The notes beneath the pieces are model-generated. The model was not told where the DNA came from, did no database searches, and worked only from the letters and a program-made list of their open reading frames with translations. A stretch of 64,000 bases of DNA from Aurelia coerulea (lineage: Eukaryota; Cnidaria; Scyphozoa; Semaeostomeae; Ulmaridae): positions 22,517,001 through 22,581,000 of the forward strand of contig CM076948.1 in assembly GCA_039566865.1 (NCBI GenBank), in the 5' to 3' direction. The position numbers and the translations under genes were made by a program. Of this stretch, positions 6,978 through 61,191 are shown one piece after another (positions within the stretch are counted from its first letter, which is position 1; every line of letters begins with the position of its first letter).

Positions 6978-7098
6978 TTTAATGACCTAAAAAGATCCGA
7001 CCCTTTCCAGGGAATGGGCCATTGTGTATTGCCCGACTTTCCTGAACAATGCTAACCTTTAACTTTGGTGATTGGCTCAGGGAAATCAAATTTCCGGC
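6978..7098 (+). repeat. 121-bp direct repeat, copy 1
   Basis: It begins TTTAATGACCTAAAAAGATC and ends TTTCCGGC. By eye it is identical to the copy at 7708-7828. Confidence 0.9.
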
Positions 7099-7707: not shown

Positions 7708-7828
7708 TTTAATGACCTAAAAAGATCCGACCCTTTCCAGGGAATGGGCCATTGTGTATTGCCCGACTTTCCTGAACAATGCTAACCTTTAACTTTGGTG
7801 ATTGGCTCAGGGAAATCAAATTTCCGGC
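7708..7828 (+). repeat. 121-bp direct repeat, copy 2
   Basis: Same sequence as 6978-7098. The flanks differ on both sides except for the shared TTT at the start. Confidence 0.9.
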
Positions 7829-8023
7829 CACAGAACACGATGAGGCGTGTTCCCCCCACCAATCACCACTAATATTTCTGTACCAAACCCCTTACCTAAA
7901 TCTTACAGGAGGGAGGTAAAAAAAAAAAATAAAATAAAATAGAATAGAATAAAAAGTTGCGGACAGAAAAGTGAAAAGTAAAGCGCAGAAGTGACAGGTA
8001 GGAGACGAAGGAGATAGAGAACG

Positions 8024-9340
8024 TGGCCAAAATAACGTGGCCAAAAATCATGAACGTGGCCAAGCGTGGCCAAAAATTGTGAACGTGGCCAAAATAACGT
8101 GGCCAAAAATTGTGAACGTGGCCAAAATAACGTGGCCAAACATTGTGAACGTGACCAAAATAACGTGGCCAAAAATTATGAACGTGGCCAAAATAACGTG
8201 GCCAAAATTGTGAACGTGGCCAAAATAACGTGACCAACAATTGTGAACGTGGCCAGAATAACGTGGCCAAAAATGGTGAACGTGGCCAAAATAACGTGGC
8301 CAAAAATTGTGAACTTGGCCAAAATAACGTGGCCAAAAATTGTGAACGTGCCCAAAATAACGTGACCAACAATTGTGAACGTGGCCAAAGTAACGTGGCC
8401 AAAAATTGTGAACGTGGCCAAAATAACATGGCCAAAAATTGTGAACGTGGCCAAAATAACGTGACCAAAAATTGTGAACGTGGCCAAAATAACGTGGCCA
8501 AAAATTGTGAACGTGGCCAAAATAACGTGACCAAAAATTGTGAACGTGGCCAAAATGACGTGACCAAAAATTGTGAACGTGGCCAAAATAGCGTGGCCAA
8601 AAATTGTGAACGTGGCCAAAATAACGTGACCAAAAATTGTGAACGTGGCCCAAAATAACGTGACCAAAAATTGTGAACGTGGCCAAAATAACGTGGCCAA
8701 AAATTGTGAACGTGGCCAAAATAACGTGGCCAAAAATTGTGAACGTGGCCAAAATAACGTGACCAAAAATTTTGAACGTGGCCCAGAATAACGTGACCAA
8801 AAATTATGAACGTGGCCAAAATAACGTGGCCAAAATTGTGAACGTGGCCAAAACAACGTAGCCAAAAATTGTGAACGTGGCCAAAAATTGTGAACGTGGC
8901 CAAAACTTGTGAACGTGGCCAAAATAACGTGGCCAAAAATTGTGAACGTGGCCAAAATAACGTGACCAAAAATTGTGAACGTGGCCCAAAATAACGCGGC
9001 CAAAAATTGTGAACGTGGCCAAAAATTATAAACGTGGCCAAAAATTATGAACGTGACCCAAAAAATAACGTGACCAAAATTATAAGCGTGACCAAAATTA
9101 TGAATGTGGCCAAAATTATGAACGCGACCAAATGAATAAGGCTAAACATTGTGAACGAGGCCAAATTAAATAACGTGGCCAAAAAAATTGGACGTGCGTG
9201 GGCATGACCAAACAATTATGAAGGTGGCCGAAACAGCGTTGCCAAAAAGCCAGTAACGTGGCCACAAAAATCGTCGCCAACAATAAAAAAAATTATGCAC
9301 GAGGCCAAAATAACGAGGCCAAGAATTGTGAAGGAGGCCA
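8024..9340. repeat. 33-bp minisatellite (GTGGCCAAAATAACGTGGCC core)
   Basis: A tandem array of about 33-bp units built from two half-units, GTGGCCAAAATAAC and GTGGCCAAAAATTGTGAAC. It is regular from about 8090 to 9040 and decayed toward 9340. Because 33 is divisible by three and the unit has few stops, long repetitive open frames appear on both strands, up to 381 codons on the minus strand. These are by-products of the array and not proteins. Confidence 0.92.
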
Positions 9341-9829
9341 AGGGCTCCAAATTTTTCCATAACCTCTTGTCTGCTCATAGTGTCCGGTTCCTTTCACTTT
9401 TTATGTCGAGCTAACTTTGGGCAATCAGGTCTTGATCAAAATGTTTGCTTTTGATACAGCAAGGTAGAAAAATTATACGTTGATAAACCTTATTTTGAGC
9501 TATAGTTTTGAACAGATTTTGTATCATTGTTGAAGTCTTCAATGAAAGTGCGCATTTCATTCTGTAATTTATGACCAAACTAGAAGCTTTACATCATTAC
9601 ATGCACAAAGAAATTGATCTGGCAATCATCAATGCTTATTCGCAGTATGATTCAAAACCAGGTAGCCCTAAAAAGAGCTAAAATAAATTCGCTAATATAT
9701 GAAACCTATTACAAGAATAAATCTATATATTGGATAATAATTTGATCCTTGATCTACTTGACAAAAAAAGAAAATCGAAGATCGGCTGTGTAATCAAATT
9801 TTGGTGATTTTTCAAACGGGAGCACTCGT

Positions 9830-12838: not shown

Positions 12839-12843
12839 CAAGG

Positions 12844-12871
12844 CACTGTGATCCAGACAGGGAATTAATCC
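12844..12871 (+). promoter_or_regulatory. Left transposon tip: heptamer, 12-bp spacer, nonamer-like block
   Basis: CACTGTG (12844-12850) is followed by a 12-bp spacer and then AATTAATCC (12863-12871). The V(D)J signal consensus is CACAGTG, 12 or 23 bp, ACAAAAACC. The heptamer matches 6 of 7 and the block 5 of 9. This is the presumed transposase recognition site. Confidence 0.6.
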
Positions 12872-13423
12872 CAAAAAATGAAACTACGAGTATACACTAT
12901 TTGAGGGTTTCATCGTAGCGAGGAGACATTGAGCTATTCGACACAACAAAAATTTCTTAAATCGGTCTTATAAATCCAGAGATATGATTTTTTAAAGTTT
13001 GACTAAATTGCAAACGGTTGTTTACGTTGCAATTTCCGGCCTTTTGTTTGCTGTATCGTTGAAAACTCATAAATTCAAGTTCTTGTATCTCTTCAACTAA
13101 TGCACCGATTTTTTGAAACTTTTTTTTGTTTTACAGATAAACACCTAAGCTATCTAAAAATACAAAGATATTTGCAAAATCTCAAGTCGATATATCAATA
13201 TTTGTCAAAATGGCGTATGACCTTTTTAAGCACGAAAACCAGGCAAATTATCGTAATTTCGTCGTTTATAGTGAAAACAAAAAATCTAACCAAATCTAAC
13301 TCTTCGAAAAAAATATCAAAATTGAATATGACGTCTTGCGAGAATTTCTGCCAAAGGATTCGTACAGCTTCGTACAGGAAAAAAAGTTATCACACATTTG
13401 GTAGGATAGGCCCTTTTTGGTTT
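12844..13423 (+). repeat. Left long terminal inverted repeat
   Basis: About 580 bp, the reverse complement of 18622-19212. It ends inside at GGCCCTTTTTGGTTT. Chance open frames such as 13100-13534 fall partly in it and are mirrored in the right copy. Confidence 0.9.
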
Positions 13424-13573
13424 AACGTTGATTTTTTGGCAACGATTTTTTGGCTTCGTACATTATTGAACTATTTCGCATACGAAAAGTGTCTATGCAA
13501 ACTACTTTCAACTATATTAGCTTTATGTGAGTAAAGCTTGTGTCTCTAAAGTATTCATTTTTTGGTCGATTAG

Positions 13574-14441
13574 CTAGTTTTCATTGTACATGTTCTTGAT
13601 AAGGGCTTCTTCTCGGTTGGGTGTATCGAACATCTCACTTTTTTTCGTTTGTCGCTTCAACACATCTTGTCGAGCCTTTGCAACAATAGGTGCCGAGGTT
13701 ATCAGCATGCGAACAAATACATCCTCGAGGTTTTCTCTTACTGATGTTTGCCGAGCTCGACAACCAGCACCACTCCTGAAATTACGGATATGCTTGTTCC
13801 ATGCCTCTAGGCCGCTTTCTGACCATACAGCAATTGGCTTCCCTTCAAGCATTTGAAACAATTGCCAATTGTGCGCAAGCATTTGATGGACAGAGGGACT
13901 GACTTTAACCCACGGGAAATGGATGGCAAGGTGGATCATTGTGTCATAGCAATGATTTCAGAATCTTTCGATGTTGACAGTTTGTGATTGGTCGACACTT
14001 TCTGAGACGGCGAGGCACACATTTAGCTGGCCGAGCAAGATGCTGAAGTTATGTCGGTCTTCAGCGCTATTAATGAGGCTGCATATAGCATCTCGATTCC
14101 ATTGGCTGAAAAAGCGGATTGCTGTGGGGCCTGCATTAGTATTACCGCCGCTTGTTGTTGGTGAATCAATCAGCAAGCCACCACAGGTAAGCTTTACATG
14201 GCTGATTGCTGTGGTTTTGGCCTCTGCAACTTTTAACTTTATAGCTTGGTTTGCTTCACTCCAAACTTTTTGCTCACAAATAAGATGGTAAAAGATCTTT
14301 AGAACGAAGTCTAGAGATCTCAATTTTTGATGGAGGATCGCGAATAAGCGGCCTGATTGTGATACCATTGGCTTGTGGCACTGCCCTTTACGTCGAGGGT
14401 CGGAATATGCAATTTGCCCACTTTCAACCATCTCCCACCTT
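13574..14441 (-). pseudogene. RAG1/Transib transposase, C-terminal third with catalytic Glu
   Basis: Read on the minus strand, this is one frame broken by an in-frame TGA near 13955-13957. The upstream part carries a GGNTNAGPTAIRFF block, close to the GNTNDGNTxRRFF motif known in Transib. The downstream part has VHQMLAHNW, where HxxxxH has the spacing of the RAG1 zinc-binding histidines, then SESGLEAWNKHIRNFR. The Glu at 13805-13807 matches the catalytic Glu of RAG1 (NESGNK context). The region after it (CRARQTSVRENLEDV) also aligns with the RAG1 C-terminal core. The frame closes at 13574. Upstream it is separated from the rest of the transposase by the element at 14444-16646. Confidence 0.85.
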
Positions 14442-15014
14442 TACGGGGTGTCCAAGTCAGACCCAAAACACGTAGACCCAAAAGAAATTCGCGTAGACCC
14501 AGACCAAAATTCTTGAGTTTGACGCAGACCCAGAATATTAAAGGCAGTTTTGTGGTAGACCCGACAATTAACATAATATTCTTAGACCCAAAACTTCATA
14601 ATAGATTAAAGTAGCATTTGTTGTTGTTAGATATTTGTTTTAACTAAAAACAACTCGTTAGTAACCTTCTGGGCACGATGATTGATTTTATGATAATTAT
14701 GCACTTTGGAAGTGAAACAGTTCTTCCGGGGGGGGGGGGGCACTTAGTACCTGATGTGTTATCATGCGCGTACAAAAAAACGCAGGAAAGGGTGCCTTTC
14801 TTCAAAGTAGGCACGGGCCCGCGCGGGCCCGTGTTTAGGGGTGCCGATTTGACCATGGTTTTACAAAAGGGTGTCTTATTTTGCATTTGATAAATCTGAA
14901 CTCCTCTGCAATGATATCTAATCAAAATTTCTAAAATAGAGTTTGTAGCGAGTCAAAGAACTTAGCAGACCAGCACAAGATGGGGTAGGAATTCGGGAGC
15001 AGTTTTCTCTTCTA

Positions 15015-16139
15015 CCCTGGGTACCCGACTCTATGAAATAGAATCTTTAACATCATTTTTAACATTATTAACATCATGGCAGCACAGTGGCGTGGCCACA
15101 GGGGGCGGGGGGTATGTGAGGTCATTGTCCCCACCACTTTTTTCGAAAGATGGTTCTCGATTTCCTTCAAAAGGACAAGTTCGGGGTTGGTATGATTGAT
15201 GATAAAATACAAGATTATACTGCAATGAATGATGTATGATACTTTTTCCCACTATTTTTTGCCTTCTCCTTGTGAAATTACGTATTCAAATGAGCAATTT
15301 GAACGAAGTGACGTCATATCGCACAAACAAAAACGAAGATGTGCGATTGCTTTTTCGCCTCTTAATCGCTGCTAGCCTCTGCGTCATGTACTCATGCATT
15401 GAAAATGGCATGAGAACACGATAAGGAGGCTTGCTACGATAAAGAGGCGAATAAACAATCACACAGCCTCGTTTTCGTTTGCACGATATGACGTCACTTC
15501 ACTCAAATTGCTTATTTGAATATGTATTTTCACAAGAAGATGACGAGAAATCGTGGAAAAAAGTATTATACATCATTCATTGCAGTATTATCTTGTATTT
15601 TATCATCAATCATACCAACCCCGGACTTGTCCTTTAAAACCGAAGAGACAATGGCTTGGCATAAGTGAGGTAAGAATTTTCTGAGAAATGTCAAAGCTTC
15701 CATTTTAGCACTGGCAAAAATGGAATCAGGGGATACATTTTACGCCAAAGTAATGGGTGCATCTTCAAAAATTTTCCTCCTGCTCCGATGTAGCTATAGA
15801 AAAAATGTCACGAACCATAAATGTTTTCTTGCCACAAATGGCAAGCATGATGTTGGGAGATGCTTTCTAAGCCAAAGTAAAAGATGTTTCTACAAAAATT
15901 TTCCTTGTGGTCTACTTTATTGGATAACTGTCACAAAACTATCAAAGTTTCCTTGTCGCTATTGGTAGCATGATGTTGGGAGGTGCATTTTCAGCCAAAG
16001 TAAAGGGTGTGTCCCAAAAAATTTCCTAACGGCTTCGCCCCCAGGCCCTCTCATTTCAATACCCCCACTTAATTTACCTTGGCCAAGCCACTGTGGTGGC
16101 ATCCATAGAATTTGATTTTAGAGGGTCTGGTACCCAGGG
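15015..16139. mobile_element. Second-level nested TA-flanked MITE
   Basis: The inverted ends CCCTGGGTACC and GGTACCCAGGG have TA on each side (15013-15014 and 16140-16141). It sits inside the 14444-16646 element. It contains direct repeats of AAAATTTTCCT- and GGAGATGCTTT-type blocks around 15720-16020, and the palindrome at 15171-15634. Confidence 0.7.
15171..15634. repeat. Third-level nested palindromic foldback MITE
   Basis: The arms AAGGACAAGTTCGGGGTTGG and their inverse meet near 15400. They include mirrored TGACGTCAT-type blocks (15308 and 15489). A relative, itself interrupted, is at about 48160-48790. Confidence 0.8.
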
Positions 16140-16648
16140 TACTCCTCTTTAAATCACACCGGCAATTTTAGCAATTTTAGTAACTGACTTGTCAGTGATT
16201 ATGGTACCTGAAATTGAGAAGCTCTATTTGGACGCGGGAAATGGTATGTTCTGCAGAAAATTTTCCGCGAATAGGGTATGTATTTCGCTTGAACAGGTCG
16301 GCGTTTAGGGTGCATATGTTAAACCTTTGTATGAGCATGATAGAAAAGTATAGAAGATTGTAGAGACCATGTACCTCCCATCGGCGTAGGGGGAGATAAA
16401 ATTTGGGGGGCTGCCCGATAAAAAGTCCATTGTTTGAGAAAATTTTGCCCGACTTGAGGCGGATTTCTGCCCGATTATGGCTGATTTTTGCAAATTATAT
16501 TTTCAAGCAGACCCAAACTTGGTCCATCTGTAGACCTAAGATCTAAGAACCTAAATAGTAACAGACCCGAAGAATTTTACCCTAGACCCAAAAATTATGT
16601 GTAGACCCACTTCAAAAAGTGCCTTGGGTCTGACTTGGACACCCCGTA

Positions 16649-17075
16649 CCTTTCCATACACTCCTCGACGGTCTTTGTGATTGGCATACCGTCAACGCCA
16701 GCCTCTGCCAAATATTGCAACTGGCTCGCTTCGCTCTGAGCTATGTCACAATAGTGGCAGAAACTCCCAGAATCCCCCTGCACAATGGAAACCATTTTCC
16801 CATCCATCATCGTGACTCTTGTTTTTATGGTCACTTTATTGGTAATTCCGGCAACATCGTGCGGCTCCATTAGGGAGTCGATATCGGACTGAAGTTTAGG
16901 GAATATGGCCGCGATAAGTTGCCTCGATTCCTTAGCTTTCACGAGGCTGATGGGTCTTGTGTAAAAGATCGAATTTGGGGTAGAGTTTTCCCAAACGGTG
17001 TGGCAGCCATCTTCTGCCTCGAAGAATATCTTCATAGGGGTCATGAAAATTCCAAGAAAGTGGTCGGACAATGAG
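16649..17075 (-). pseudogene. RAG1/Transib transposase, central part with CxxC
   Basis: The minus-strand frame runs LSDHFLGIFMTPMKIFFEAE..., then ENSTPNSIFYTRPISLVKAK, then TRVTMMDGKMVSIVQGDSGS and FCHYCDIAQSEASQL. The CxxC after GS aligns with the zinc CxxC of RAG1 (ICTLCD followed by EAS). TMMDGK matches the conserved MIDGK block of Transib proteins. The frame is shifted by one base from the upstream part near 17075, and the nested element cuts it at 16648. Confidence 0.85.
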
Positions 17076-17907
17076 TTGACATGGAGGAATCATCATCACG
17101 ATTACCTGACAACTGCTGTCGCTTTTTGTGTGATCCAGACCCATCTAGACCCGCTTTAACGTCGAACTGCAAGAGGTTATCGCCTTTAAGCAGATCAAGT
17201 TTGTCTCCTATGGGCTCACTGGAAAGCAATGCGTGCAGGGTAGAATCGAAAAGGTCTTTGACATCTACCGAGGCGGACAATGAGTCTAGCTTGATGGAAG
17301 GGTATAAGGATTTCTTGTAGCAGTCAATTTCAGTTCTTGGTCTGAAAGAATTCACGCCGTATTTTATCAGCAAGTTGCGGCACATCTGATATTGACGCTG
17401 TGAGAGGTTTCCAACGTATACCAGGGCTGTTAGCTCACTTACAGGAATAGAAGAAATTTGCAAGCTTTGAAAAAACTCTGACATGTCCCAGCCTTCTGAC
17501 TTACATGCCTCCTCGACCATCTTCTGCAACATTTCTTCTTTCCTAATTCCATTCGCATCAGCCAGAACTTCAACAGAACTAAGACTATCCCTCAGCAGCT
17601 TGCGCTCTACTTTACGACAAGGTAGATCACCAAGTGACAGGGTGGGACGGCCAGATTTTCGTGGCAATGATAATTGACTGTCTGATCTTGGTCGGCTACG
17701 TTTTTTAACTTGTTCATCTACTTCATCATTGAACACTCTTTCTTTCACACGCCAGGCTTCATCCTTAACTTTAACTTGATACAATTTTTGAAGTACTAAT
17801 TGAATTTTATATGCGTCTTCCTTCAGCCCCTTTTCCTTTATCAGTTTCTCTGCTAGATCCTTAAATTTTGCAGTATATTTCGCGTTATACTTCGTACTTT
17901 TATCCTT
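17072..17907 (-). pseudogene. RAG1/Transib transposase, N-terminal part with first catalytic Asp
   Basis: The frame is open on the minus strand from just after an in-frame TGA (17908-17910). A preceding ATG at about 17963 would add some 18 residues if that stop is a mutation. The N-terminus is Lys-rich (KLIKEKGLKEDAYKIQ), followed by a basic KKRSRPRSD segment that could be a nuclear localisation or DNA-binding region. Near the end is FDVKAGLDGSGSHKKRQQLS, whose Asp at 17143-17145 matches the first catalytic Asp of RAG1 and Transib (KESCDGMGD and xxDGSxGxSxYKQ contexts). A one-base deletion near 17075 throws the frame off just after this motif. Confidence 0.82.
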
Positions 17908-17910
17908 TCA

Positions 17911-18621
17911 ATCACCATTTTCAACTATGAAATCATAAAGCTCGCCATTCGTTGTGATAAACATGATAGATTTTGTGACATATAGCTATTGGAATGGTTT
18001 AAAAACTACAGGCTAGCAGTTTTATGTTTCAGCAGTCCTTGTTTTATTTTGCGGTAGAAACTGACTTGGAAATTAACATAGAAAATTCTGCTTCTCAACG
18101 AGGCATAGGAAACACACAAGCTTGGGTCGGTCATAGTTACGAGGAAAAAAACCATTTGATTGTCTTGCAGGTGTTAGTTTATGCACAGTTGCTTCATCCT
18201 GTAATTTGAGCTCTCCCTCCATCCCATATACAGTATGGTGAGCTGTAGACACTCTCAATGCGTACCATCAAAGATTTACAAGTTGAATTTATATTTTGAA
18301 AGAACAAGCACTGAGTGCGGTAAAGTTGCCTTGCCTTAAACAAGAGGCATTTAAGGCCAATAGGTGAATGGGAAAGTAATGACAGGGGAATGTTGGCAGT
18401 AGTTATGTTTCAATAAAAGTCACTACAAGCATATCCAAACTATTGACGACTCTTCTCTACCAAATCGAGGCCCTTGAAGACCAGTTAACATTTTCATTGA
18501 CTACGGAATCGAGATCAAATCCGAGTCGACAAACAAGAAGCATGAAAATATTACACCACAACAAGATCTTTATCAATAGTTGGTTGTAAATGCTTTAGTG
18601 AGTACGACGATACCCAAACAC
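17911..18621. other. Transposon interior upstream of the transposase
   Basis: It lies between the transposase start and the right inverted repeat. A minus-strand frame (18073-18258) contains KLVCFLC and could be an upstream exon, but no splice pairing was established. The promoter of the transposase would lie here. Confidence 0.4.
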
Positions 18622-19212
18622 AAACCAAAAAGGGCCTATCCTACCAAATGTGTGATAACTTTTTTTCCTGTACGAAGCTGTACGAATCCTTTGGCAGAAG
18701 TTCTCTCAAGACGTCATATTCAATTTTGATATTTTTTTCGAAGAGTTAGATTTGGTTAGATTTTTTGTTTTCACTATAAACGACGAAATTACGATAATTT
18801 GCCTGGTTTTCGTGCTTAAAAAGATCATACGCCATTTTGACAAATATTGATATATCGACTTGAGATTTTTCAGATACCTTTGTATTTTTAGATAGTTTAG
18901 GTGTTTATCTGTAAAACAAAAAAAAGTTTCAAAAAATCGGTGCATTAGTTGAAGAGATACAAGAGCTTGAATTCATGGGTTTTCGACGATACAGCAAACA
19001 AAAGGCCGGAATATGCAATGTAAACAACAGTTTGCAATTTACTCAAACTTTAAAAAATCATATCTCTGGATTTATAAGACCGATTTAAGAAATTTTTGTT
19101 TTATCGAATAGCTCAATGTCTCTTCGCCATGGTGAAACCCTCAAATAGTGTATACTCGTATTTTCACTTTTTGGGATTAATTCCACGATTTCTAAAGAGC
19201 TGGATCACAGTG
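18622..19212 (-). repeat. Right long terminal inverted repeat
   Basis: About 591 bp, inverse of 12844-13423. The 11-bp excess over the left copy is accounted for by the longer spacer next to the heptamer. Confidence 0.9.
19174..19212 (-). promoter_or_regulatory. Right transposon tip: heptamer, 23-bp spacer, nonamer-like block
   Basis: Read inward on the minus strand: CACTGTG (19212-19206), a 23-bp spacer, then AATTAATCC (19182-19174). The left end has the same two blocks 12 bp apart. The first five or six spacer bases (ATCCAG) are shared and the rest differs. Confidence 0.6.
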
Positions 19213-19217
19213 CAAGG

Positions 19218-25683: not shown

Positions 25684-26227
25684 AAAATTATGATAATGAT
25701 CATCGTGAGAAGAAACTTACTTGATTCGTGTACAAAAGTATTATGAATAGAAATCAGCAGAAATGTTGCACCCCCCAGTAATGACCCCGCCGGACATTCT
25801 GGGTGGAAGTTGTATAATTTTCGACGGGGGAATAGCGGGGAAACAACAGAAACGAGATGGGAAAATGTTTAAACTAAAACTGAGCTGGGAAACAAATTTT
25901 TTTCGTGGGCCATCCTTTTACCTTGGCGTTGCATCGTTTTAGCGGGGTTGTTACTGGGAGGTGTAGTGTTCAAGTTTATAGGTAAACAACTTGCAAGTGG
26001 ATGCGTGGAGATAATGATTGGGAGGGTCCAAAAATTTGAAGGGATTGTATGGCACCTTGACTCCCTACCCTAGGTTCCAGAGCGTTAACAAAAAATTAGA
26101 GATTGACTCCCTTGGTATTTGCTTGATAACTTGCTGGTGCCATTGTACAAAGCTTGTCTTTGATTATGTTTCAATTTCTGACAACTCTGTAACGACACTG
26201 TTATCATCAATTTCTTTTTGTCTTCAG

Positions 26228-26423
26228 ATTTCCACCTGGTTTGCCAATGCAAGACGGAGATTAAAGAAAGATAACAAAATGACATGGTCCCCGCGAAACA
26301 AATCTTCAGATAAGAGAGAATCAAGTTGTAAGAGTTCAAAGAAGGATGACACGGGTAAAAGTATCAGTTCAATTGACGATGATGATGATGATTTTAGTGA
26401 ATGCATGGATACTAATGAAAGAG
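26228..26423 (+). CDS. Iroquois homeobox exon, helix 3 and acidic tail
   Basis: The acceptor TTTTTGTCTTCAG ends at 26227 and the donor GTAAGG starts at 26424. The exon starts [20 protein letters not shown], the recognition helix with the Ala of WFANARRR typical of Iroquois proteins, where relatives usually have Val in place of the first Ile. It continues with a Ser/Lys-rich segment and an acidic run ([12 protein letters not shown]), as found after the homeodomain in IRX proteins. It leaves in phase 1. Confidence 0.97.
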
Positions 26424-26778
26424 GTAAGGGCCTAAAGATCACATGTTGTCTATTTTCTATATTCCAATAAAAATTTACAATACAAATCTACTACTGCCTT
26501 ATTTAATGGCGATTACGCCCACTTGTAACACGCTGATGATGAATCTTAGAAATTGATCCGAAACGTTCTATATCAATATGGTTTAGCCACTCGTTTTATG
26601 TCTCTTGGATTTGTCAACTGGATTTGTCGTTTATTATTCTTGGACTTGTCATCCTTTAAAATGGAAAAGCTGAAATTATTCTCTATTACTATGCAAAATG
26701 ATATTATTTGTCGTCGTTCTTGCCCTCCGACAAATTTACTAGTTATGCTATTTACACTACAAGGACGATGCCACTTGA

Positions 26779-27303
26779 AGCATAGGTTCCAAATCTTTAT
26801 CTCGGCGTAAAAAGGTGGGTGTAAAATTCAATGACCTATTTCTTCTGATTGAATGGCTTGAAAGAAACTTTAGATACTTATCTATAATTCTACCGTTGGA
26901 CTTTTCAGAAATTTTGAATATTTTTGGAAATTACAGCGTATCTTACATTTCAACTCATTTGAGGATGTGACGTCATCAAATTTCTAAATCATAAACGAGA
27001 TGAGTGACAGACTTTTGCTTGATACCATATTGTAGGCATTTATGAACGATGGTTTCCTTCGAAATTATTTCATGTTACGTCAAACTGTATAGAAATTACG
27101 ATGGTTTTGAAATTTTTTGAAAATTTTTCTTGAATTCTTGAAAAAGAAGAAAAACACTCTGATTCTGAAAATATTAAAGATTTCAGAAAATTCCAACGGT
27201 AGAATTATAGAGAATTAGCTAAAGTTTCTTTGAAGTCATTCAGTTCAAAGAAATAGGTCACTCAATTTTACACCAGCCTTTTTAAAGATTTGGAACCTAT
27301 GCT
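26779..27303 (+). mobile_element. MULE-type MITE with 9-bp target duplication
   Basis: The ends AGCATAGGTTCC and GGAACCTATGCT are flanked by GCCACTTGA (26770-26778 and 27304-27312). Same family as 1615-2137. It sits in an Iroquois intron. Confidence 0.88.
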
Positions 27304-29815: not shown

Positions 29816-30326
29816 AGCAAAGGGCTCAAATCTTTAAAAAAGTCTGTGTAAAAGTCTATTACAATTTTCTTTTAAATGAATGGCTTAGAAGGAACTCAGG
29901 ATTTTTGCCATAGATCTGCCTTTAGAAATTTATTGATATCTGGATAAGTTTCAAAATGGCGGCATTTATTAAAATTTGAGGCTATGACGTCATTAAATTT
30001 CTAAATCCTAAACTAGAAGAGCTACAGATTTTTACTTGCCACCATATTATAGACCTTCATAGACTATGGTTTTCTTGAAGGTTATCATTTTCCATCTATT
30101 GGTTTAGGATTTACGATGATTAAAAGTTTTTTCGAAAATTTCCATGAATTCTTTCAAAATAATTAAATTGCCGCCATTTTGAAACAAATCAAGATATCAA
30201 AAAATTTCCACGGCAGATTTCCAGCAAAGTACCATAAGTTTATTTCAAGCCATTCAATTCCAAGAAAAATGTCATAGAATTTTACACCCACCTTTTTAGA
30301 TATTTGAAAGATTTGAGCCCTATGCT
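29816..30326 (+). mobile_element. MULE-type MITE with 9-bp target duplication
   Basis: The ends AGCAAAGGGCTCAAATCTTT and AAGATTTGAGCCCTATGCT are flanked by GTCAAGTAA (29807-29815 and 30327-30335). It is a diverged member of the family at 1615-2137. It lies less than 200 bp upstream of an Iroquois exon acceptor. Confidence 0.88.
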
Positions 30327-37436: not shown

Positions 37437-37772
37437 TCATGTGATTTCGACAGTCATCAATGATAGTTTTCTTGAAATATGAACAAAATTGGCAAGAAAG
37501 GCAGCTAACTTGTGCTCAAAAAAATCAAAAATTGGACTTACGAATAACGGTGCAATGGCAGTTATGCCATACGTGAACTCAATTTTTTGAAAATTTTTCT
37601 TGAATTCTTGAAAAAAAGGAAAAACACTCTTATCATGAAAAATACTGAAGATTTCAAAAAATTCCAACCGTAGAATTATATAGAAATAGCTCAAATTTCT
37701 TTGAAATAATTCAGTTAAAGAAATAGGTCATTGAATTTTACACCCACCTTTTTAAAGATTTGAAACCTATTC
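37437..37772 (+). mobile_element. Truncated MULE-type MITE
   Basis: The right two thirds match the 26779-27303 family, including the TTTTTCTTGAATTCTTG block and the end GATTTGAAACCTAT. The left end is missing and no target duplication was found. Confidence 0.7.
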
Positions 37773-48104: not shown

Positions 48105-48159
48105 GTATGTTCTTTGTCATTTGTATTTATCATTTGCTCATCCCATTTTCATTATATCA

Positions 48160-48790
48160 AAGGACGAGTCCAGGGTTGGTATGATTGATGAAAAAACACA
48201 AGATTATACTGTTGAGGTGAATCTCCACTAGGTGGAAAAAATGGAGCGATTCGACTTTTTCCGCGCTTTCACATGCACAGTAACCGTTCAAAATATAAGG
48301 TCGCAGCGGAAAAAGTTGAGTGCTGAAAAGCAGGATCTGTTTCTACTTTTTGCTGAATTGCTCTCTCAAAGAACCAATTAGCATGCTTTGAAGACCTGTT
48401 ACCACGGAAACTGAAATTGAACATCTAGCGGAACAAAGAAAATCGCAGCAGGAGAGTTTGAATCACGCAGGTTTTTCCGCCAAGTGGAGATGATGAATCT
48501 TTGCACTTGCAAAAATGTTGACTTGGATTAAATCGAATTGTTCAAATTTTTCCGCCTTGTGGAGATTCACCTTTATGAATGGTGTATCACATACCATTTT
48601 TCAACCTTTTTTATCTGTTTTCTTTGAAATTGCGTGGTGACGTCATCACGCTCAAAGATCTGAGAGAAATCTTGGCATGTGATGATGTCGCTATGGACAA
48701 GTCACTTATTTATGAATTAATTTGGCAAGGAAGGGCGAAAAATGGTGGAAAAAGTATGATATATCATTCATAACAGTATTTTATCATTAA
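48160..48790. repeat. Interrupted palindromic foldback MITE
   Basis: The outer arms AAAGGACGAGTCCAGGGTTG and the inverted part ending near 48790 match the 15171-15634 family. A second foldback with GGTGAATCTCCAC ends (about 48213-48572) is inserted in it. Confidence 0.65.
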
Positions 48791-60054: not shown

Positions 60055-61191
60055 TCACTTGTTTTTCTTCTTTCTTGGAGGACTCTTAGGTGAAGGGGAC
60101 CTACTTCTGGACCTCCTTTGAAAGCTACCACGAGATGTTGAAACACGAGAACACTTGCTAGCAGTATGTGAGCCCTGACATAAACAGCAAACATGGCGGT
60201 ATCTGCACGGGTCGAACCTGCAATCTCCTCGATTCCAAAAGACACAAATTCCTTGACTAGGTGATTCAATATTGCTTACAACTGGTTTCGAAGGAGAGGC
60301 CACTGAACTATTTGAGAACTTTTGGAAGACATTGGAGACAAAAAGATTCACATCAATATCGGACCAAGTTGATAAGGGATTTTCTGCCACCCTCTTGCGA
60401 AAAGCACGATCATAAGCCAACCATCCTTCGCCATACGATTCTCTCTGGATTTTAGATATTTGCAAAAAATAACCCATGAGCTGCCCAACTTTGCTCTGAT
60501 TGAATTGGAGGTACAAGGAAGCAAACACGATCCATGCCTCGGCCCAGTCCTGAAAATTGCGAATTGGCTGCAACTCTGAATTTTTTTCGCATTTCAAAAG
60601 GCGCATTAACTGAGCCCCAACAGGTTCAACTGGGGGGAGTTTGTCCAAATTAGCTGGGCGCAAAAGGACCAAATCGACAAAAATGTTCTTCTTTACCATG
60701 TTTACAATGTAACCAGGTACAGGCGGCAGACTTTCAGCAACGGAAAAACCAGGCTGTGAAATTTGGCTGGTGACAAAAAGTTGAGGATTCAACGCAAAAA
60801 GTTCTTTAGGAATATTCCAATTAGCTAGGCTTGGGACACTGGTGGACTGAGCTGAGGCTGAGCTCGTGGTCGGCTGACCCTGGAGGCTTGACGACAGAAA
60901 AACATTAGATTGACTAAGGCCAACTGAAGCCACGGGCAAAAATGAAGGGGCAAAGTTTTGGCTAAAAGCAGATTGACCTGAGCTCGTAGAAATAACGGAT
61001 GCCTGTGAGCTTGTACCAGAGAACGATGTTGCATCTTGGTTTGAAACATTGACATCAGGCCCCCCCGAAGTCAAAAGACGCCCGACTGACTGCTGAATAT
61101 TCGATATAGCTGATTCAAGAACCCCCAATCTTGCACCCATTAAATCTCCACCTGTCAAATTCGAGTTAGTCGAAGTATCTTCATCAGACAT
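60055..61191 (-). CDS. Gag-like protein of the DIRS-order element
   Basis: A complete 378-codon minus-strand frame from ATG at 61191 to a stop at 60055. Residues 1-120 are Ser/Gln-rich and low complexity. The middle (about 125-300) has a folded, hydrophobic character with WAEAWIVFASLYLQFNQSK. The C-terminus has CVFWNRGDCRFDPCRYRHVC followed by CLCQGSHTASKC, a CCCH-like finger fused to a CCHC-like knuckle. C-x-x-x-N-x-G-x-C...C-x-Y-x-H-x-C-x-x-C...H...C is a recurring signature of gag proteins of DIRS-order elements. It ends in an RS-rich, Lys-rich tail (RRSRSRSPSPKSPPRKKKNK). It probably binds RNA. The intact frame suggests a fairly young copy. Confidence 0.75.
   Translation of the reverse strand: MSDEDTSTNSNLTGGDLMGARLGVLESAISNIQQSVGRLLTSGGPDVNVSNQDATSFSGTSSQASVISTSSGQSAFSQNFAPSFLPVASVGLSQSNVFLSSSLQGQPTTSSASAQSTSVPSLANWNIPKELFALNPQLFVTSQISQPGFSVAESLPPVPGYIVNMVKKNIFVDLVLLRPANLDKLPPVEPVGAQLMRLLKCEKNSELQPIRNFQDWAEAWIVFASLYLQFNQSKVGQLMGYFLQISKIQRESYGEGWLAYDRAFRKRVAENPLSTWSDIDVNLFVSNVFQKFSNSSVASPSKPVVSNIESPSQGICVFWNRGDCRFDPCRYRHVCCLCQGSHTASKCSRVSTSRGSFQRRSRSRSPSPKSPPRKKKNK

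Follow-up and report, generated by a model that had tools for sequence, protein, structure and literature searches.

Positions 12844-19212 of the DNA analyzed here, a 64,000-nucleotide stretch of the Aurelia coerulea genome (contig CM076948.1 of assembly GCA_039566865.1; "the window"), hold a transposon that is a copy of a large cut-and-paste family of the Transib superfamily. At one of its ends 12 bp, and at the other 23 bp, lie between a terminal heptamer, CACTGTG, and an inner block, AATTAATCC. This 12/23 asymmetry is a fixed feature of the family: all facing end pairs that we could type, 52/52 with the pair in the window included, combine one 12-bp with one 23-bp end. We consider it likely that the RAG1-like transposase of this 12/23 family grips each end at both blocks and prefers to join ends of unlike length.

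The end structure was first proposed from the letters of the window alone. Direct reading showed the CACTGTG tips and the gaps of 12 bp on the left and 23 bp on the right to be exact, and the proposed 5-bp duplication CAAGG was present on both sides of the element. The parts of the two ends, with the basis of each, are as follows.

12839-12843, no strand: target-site duplication CAAGG, left copy (direct reading)
12844-12850, plus strand: heptamer CACTGTG of the 12-end (direct reading)
12851-12862, plus strand: 12-bp spacer ATCCAGACAGGG (direct reading)
12863-12871, plus strand: inner element AATTAATCC of the 12-end (direct reading and conservation counts)
12844-13423, plus strand: 12-side terminal inverted repeat, 580 bp (repeat comparison)
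18622-19212, minus strand: 23-side terminal inverted repeat, 591 bp (repeat comparison)
19174-19182, minus strand: inner element AATTAATCC of the 23-end (direct reading and conservation counts)
19183-19205, minus strand: 23-bp spacer ATCCAGCTCTTTAGAAATCGTGG (direct reading)
19206-19212, minus strand: heptamer CACTGTG of the 23-end (direct reading and conservation counts)
19213-19217, no strand: target-site duplication CAAGG, right copy (direct reading)

The sequence-only reading had further described the two repeats as colinear apart from the spacer, and this held. The arms at 12861-13423 and 18622-19184 align over 563 nt without gaps and with 24 mismatches, and the 11-bp difference between the ends is thus confined to the spacer. 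Both spacers start with ATCCAG and end with GG and differ in the middle; whichever 11 bp are removed from the right (23-bp) spacer, at least three mismatches to the 12-bp left spacer remain, so that the difference does not amount to one clean indel. The 11-bp offset is objective, and the exact values 12 and 23 hinge on naming AATTAATCC the inner element.

The proposed consistency of the two spacer lengths across copies was borne out by a search of the whole genome. The tip pattern CACTGTGN{5,35}AATTAATCCCAAAAA, run over the 574-Mb genome from which the window comes, matched 226 places, and the same pattern run backwards as a control matched none (0). Spacers were typed for 100 listed tips out of the 226 (contigs C1-C7), and some others were read separately; the listed tips carried a 12-bp spacer in 51 cases, a 23-bp spacer in 48 and a 13-bp spacer in 1. 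Facing pairs at most 15 kb apart among the listed tips were of the 12+23 type in 35/35 cases, the window's own pair included, and in 47/47 cases once tips found through inner sequence (see below) and 15 extra tips were added; three tips in the latter count were typed as 12 solely via a 120-for-120 match, the remaining extras being read directly. Reading the second end of five more copies (L076, L078, L082, L084 and L087) gave 12/23 each time and brought the total to 52. The 47 pairs found by script lay on their contigs 27 one way and 20 the other way, and separation was 2.2-2.5 kb in 25/35 listed pairs.

Thirty listed tips initially had no partner. Five of these were later paired by the script and five by second-end reading, and another, L090, faced a 23-type remnant lacking the heptamer. 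No partner was found for 18 listed tips, of which 15 were inspected: 14 over 400 bp at the distance expected of a 2.35-kb copy, with an 8-kb range added for one, and the fifteenth over an 8-kb range alone. The remaining tip of the thirty, C2:7129378-7129412 (L077), has the only 13-bp spacer among the listed tips, and its partner arm is truncated, starting only at repeat position 63. The 34 pairs fetched for inspection of their flanks comprised 26 with an exact 5-bp target duplication, 1 with one mismatch and 7 unmatched; among the exact cases, C occupied position 1 in 13/26 and G position 5 in 18/26. In viral and bacterial/archaeal collections, where an animal transposon is not expected, the tip pattern had no match, and no relative of the transposase could be confirmed.

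Some copies are deletion derivatives. Comparison of the window element with nine copies by blastn defined the missing stretch:

13642-17665, no strand: stretch absent from deletion derivatives, with a shared junction near 13641/17666

This junction was present in 8/9 copies compared. Both ends are kept in these derivatives, which were presumably moved in trans.

A first look at conservation used tips chosen by their exact motifs; it was biased and was superseded by a sample chosen on inner sequence. For the latter, we searched with the inner repeat 12964-13084 and took the best 40 of 275 candidates, which after the window's own hit was dropped left 39 tips. One was truncated inside the repeat, and the 38 readable tips had spacers of 12 bp (6 tips) or 23 bp (32 tips) and no other length; the 16 that overlap the 100 listed tips agreed in type throughout. 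Relative to the tip consensus, substitutions numbered 0/266 in the heptamer, 0/342 in AATTAATCC (both end types pooled), 1/736 in the 23-bp spacer, 5/72 in the 12-bp spacer, 7/228 in the A-tract that follows AATTAATCC and 74/3039 in the next 80 bp. All five changes in the 12-bp spacer fall at one shared position and represent a subfamily change.

By Fisher tests, which treat related copies as independent, the heptamer and AATTAATCC together (0/608) differed from the 80 bp that come after the A-tract (p 1.9e-6), and AATTAATCC differed from the adjoining A-tract (p 0.0015). The constrained module therefore ends just past AATTAATCC, and these counts support the reading of AATTAATCC as a candidate inner element. 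The suggestion that AATTAATCC would also prove more conserved than the spacer was not upheld, the comparison of 0/342 with 6/808 being not significant (p = 0.19); the spacers, like the heptamer and AATTAATCC, are under constraint.

The tips of the window copy are identical to the family consensus at all 28 positions of the 12-end and all 39 positions of the 23-end, and its arms differ by roughly 8-10% from those of other copies. We infer that the 12/23 tips predate the split of these lineages and have been maintained as the arms diverged. Between copies, arms on the same side had median identities of 97.4% and 96.9%, as against 93.6% for the two arms within a copy, and only in 3/70 cases was the best match of an arm its own partner. 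Homogenization of the arms within copies, with a spacer that resists it, was considered and not borne out: because same-side arms are closer across copies than partners are within a copy, nothing points to routine conversion that would test the asymmetry within copies.

The likeness of AATTAATCC to the vertebrate nonamer fared differently. The block had been called nonamer-like, and it matches ACAAAAACC at 5/9 positions; a 9-mer that does so equally well or better turns up in 2597/3000 56-bp stretches drawn at random from the window. Another A-rich block, CCAAAAA(A/G)T, which would give a 20/31 spacing, matches the nonamer at 6/9 positions. We have dropped homology of AATTAATCC to the nonamer, since the match is no better than expected by chance. 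What ties the family to V(D)J recombination is therefore the heptamer, the spacer lengths and the transposase, not on the letters of the nonamer.

The assignment of the element to the Transib/RAG1 type was confirmed by its transposase gene, which lies in pieces on the minus strand.

13577-13957, minus strand: C-terminal part of the transposase, with the third catalytic E (codon 13805-13807) and an HxxxxH zinc-binding pair; HzTransib match, E 2e-6
13961-14440, minus strand: middle part, past the nested insertion; weak HzTransib match, E 0.24
14443-16647, no strand: younger transposon nested in the transposase gene, with an inverted repeat and flanked by the 6-bp duplication ACCTTT (14437-14442, 16648-16653)
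16640-17089, minus strand: RNase H-like part, with the second catalytic D (codon 16802-16804) and a CHYC zinc-binding pair; Pfam PF12940 RAG1, E 4.2e-6, and HzTransib, E 5.3e-7
17044-17964, minus strand: N-terminal part, with the GRP motif of a region resembling the nonamer-binding domain and the first catalytic D (codon 17143-17145)

The N-terminal part contains one in-frame stop and its frame is broken at the 3' end; together with the nested transposon and a second stop, these breaks lead us to predict that the window copy is dead. The nested element of about 2.2 kb has ends ACGGGGTGTCC... and holds an inverted pair at 15013-15044/16110-16141. Within it, at 15170-15635, we observed a fold-back element whose two arms, 228 bp each, are 86% complementary and 10 bp apart, with similar pieces at 48159-48211 and 48718-48779.

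The Pfam RAG1 match, made by a single piece of the transposase, is just above cut-off. HzTransib is the best relative of solved structure for two pieces (those with E 5.3e-7 and 2e-6), and the N-terminal piece alone gave no convincing match. Of 7995 candidates scored against a read-through of the transposase, 21 were relatives; the best, P0001, is unbroken, is 714 aa long and shares 58% identity across 99% of the query. A profile of the family scored HzTransib at 155.7 bits, amphioxus RAG1-like protein (RAG1L) at 88.8 and the best RAG1 at 66. The D, D and E of the family, which are present in the window copy, align with those of HzTransib, given as D126, D225 and E436 in the excerpt of PMC6941560 that we drew on, and both catalytic D columns are invariant in the 21 relatives. 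An AlphaFold model of P0001 (mean predicted local distance difference test score 76.9) had HzTransib and mouse RAG1 as its best fold matches. The GRP motif in the N-terminal region recalls the nonamer-binding domain, and such a motif has been reported in the nonamer-binding domains of Transibs (Tao et al., PMC9435367). Among the open reading frames (ORFs) of the window element there is no long second gene and no RAG2-like gene is apparent; this is limited to that ORF list, as no kelch search was made and none of the copies seen as DNA was intact.

These observations suggest a model in which the GRP-containing N-terminal domain would hold AATTAATCC and the catalytic domain the heptamer. With an 11-bp offset, about one helical turn, a single flexible dimer could hold the two ends at different distances. 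As in HzTransib, cleavage would begin with a nick and leave a hairpin on the flanking side, and the element would integrate at positions 5 bp apart. Under a pairing preference the two ends would be told apart and excision of the whole element would be favored, and we infer that the transposase may require a 12/23 pair. A stronger version, that a Transib transposase working without RAG2 in a non-bilaterian enforces a true 12/23 rule, with the one-turn offset counted from the heptamer to the inner block, and that this rule arose before RAG2 and before vertebrates and came down with the transposase, is one that we put forward tentatively and would sooner doubt than assert.

Several points weigh against a pairing preference. 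Constant 12/23 pairing is no proof of a rule, because each jump carries both ends along and plain inheritance would give the same result. According to the excerpt of PMC8355894, mouse RAG1 has no preference for 12/23 pairs when RAG2 is missing. The Pfam RAG1 model stayed below cut-off on the five relatives scanned (P0001, P0002, P0007, P0014 and P0020), and AATTAATCC resembles the vertebrate nonamer no better than chance. The 23-bp spacer is near-invariant, so that spacer sequence, and not length alone, may matter. Older copies are under-represented in a sample of best-scoring tips, the Fisher tests carry the dependence among related copies, and the 7/34 fetched pairs that lack a matching target duplication also count on this side.

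An alternative is that the two ends are unlike and simply inherited. Each tip would be recognized whole and sequence-specifically (28 bp at one end, 39 bp at the other), the lengths 12 and 23 would have no counting role, and the numerical match to V(D)J recombination would be partly coincidence and partly a matter of where the inner block is taken to begin. The spacers are indeed about as conserved as the blocks, the match of AATTAATCC to the vertebrate nonamer is at chance level, the other A-rich block would give 20/31, and offsets vary among RAG-like (RAGL) elements, being 27/31 in ProtoRAG (in the excerpt of PMC8289069) and 4/13 in AanRAGL (PMC9435367). However, conservation drops sharply past AATTAATCC, which indicates that the inner block is well placed, and the published Transibs with ends of 12/23 +/- 1 (PMC8355894, in excerpt) lower the odds of pure coincidence. 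We regard unlike ends without a counting role as unlikely, though they are the most serious competitor to a preference of the transposase for ends of different length.

It is highly improbable that the element is of the RAGL type (RAG1L plus RAG2L) and has lost its RAG2-like gene, rather than being a Transib. In favor of such an origin, the two blocks of the family profile that match HzTransib are separated by about 49 positions, as against 11 residues in HzTransib itself, and amphioxus RAG1L aligns across this stretch; a region of this kind is reported in Subgroup I Transibs as well as in RAG1L (Tao et al., PMC9435367). The profile nevertheless favors HzTransib by the scores given above, and the tail C-x2-C-x3-GH-x4-C is absent from the window fragment and from the 9 relatives of the closest type whose C-terminus is complete (8/21 relatives are cut short). 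A zinc knuckle of this form was seen at the C-terminus of 4/21 relatives, the more distant P0017-P0020. Finally, a private 11-bp indel of the window copy, for which there is no direct support beyond the single 13-bp spacer as a sign that indels occur, has practically no probability left, being refuted by the genome-wide tips and their spacer counts, the inner-sequence tips and the 52/52 facing pairs, and by spacers that differ in sequence besides length.

Elsewhere in the window, a tandem repeat array at 8019-9341 reads, on the minus strand, as long open frames of repetitive sequence, 2455-2892 (438 bp) matches its own reverse complement at 86% and forms a large palindrome-like element, and a 121-bp direct repeat is 100% identical between 6978-7098 and 7708-7828. 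A dispersed repeat family occurs at 1615-2135, 26779-27301, 29974-30309 and 37583-37770, with 75-87% identity to the first copy over the aligned parts. The ORF at 26018-26470 has a TALE-homeodomain-like stretch and encodes what we take, from its likeness, to be an Iroquois-like homeobox protein. The ORF at 60055-61191 (378 aa, with a cysteine-rich C-terminus and 32 related proteins, one of them with a GoldUCD label) is probably a gag-like gene of a retroelement. Labels of the form 'Seg... GoldUCD', which belong to the Aurelia moon-jellyfish gene set, occur on some named relatives of the transposase and of a second repeat ORF.

The family is a member of an already known kind, and an unusually clean one, with more copy-level evidence than is described in the work cited here. 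Ends within 1 bp of 12/23 are attributed to Drosophila melanogaster Transib5 and Anopheles gambiae Transib2/N1/N2/N3 in the excerpt of PMC8355894, which cites Kapitonov and Jurka 2005, and these elements resemble ours in belonging to the Transib superfamily and in their asymmetric ends. Unlike these insect elements, the present family is cnidarian and has an exact offset set within near-identical repeats of about 580-591 bp and observed in 52 pairs; the likeness is one of described end spacing.

HzTransib, from Helicoverpa zea, has CAC tips and makes 5-bp duplications, and it is the best solved relative of the family by both sequence and fold. It differs in that its terminal inverted repeats (TIRs) are termed symmetric in the excerpt of PMC8289069, and in being about 38 residues shorter than the family profile past the CxxC motif. 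In Subgroup I Transibs (Hydra Transib-9 and ctenophore and bacterial elements), the TIRs are reported to be asymmetric throughout and to go with an extra RAG2-binding-like region, and Subgroup II to have both kinds of TIR (Tao et al. 2022, PMC9435367). Our family is like Subgroup I in its asymmetric TIRs; the extra residues of its profile alignment may or may not correspond to RAG1 alpha11-alpha12. The CTT1 zinc-knuckle tail described for Subgroup I (PMC9435367) is the one that the window copy and the 9 relatives of its type lack. Among the titles and abstract openings of the Transib literature, a scope outside which the supplements of Tao et al. with their Hydra families fall, we found no 12/23 Transib in a cnidarian.

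ProtoRAG and AanRAGL share with the family a RAG1-type transposase, bipartite ends of unequal spacing and 5-bp duplications, but their spacers are different and both carry a RAG2-like gene, of which none is apparent in the window element. Invertebrate RAGL elements have been proposed to be relatively insensitive to asymmetry (PMC7204232, in excerpt). How the 12/23 rule arose is among the open problems in the evolution of adaptive immunity, and the only non-vertebrate cases named in the excerpts cited here are a few fly and mosquito Transibs. With 226 exact tips, long arms that are near-identical apart from the spacer, many exact target duplications and an unbroken transposase relative in P0001, the present family offers a far cleaner test bed. 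Like the vertebrate recombination signal sequences (12RSS and 23RSS) on which RAG1/RAG2 acts, its ends place an inner block 12 or 23 bp from a CAC-led heptamer, and its catalytic protein is related to theirs; unlike them, its ends have an inner block that agrees with ACAAAAACC at only five of nine positions and spacers conserved in sequence, and they bound a transposon with no apparent RAG2 rather than gene segments. If the rule proves true for this family, antibody-type spacing would not need a vertebrate immune system, and the 12/23 rule would not have been invented for immunity.

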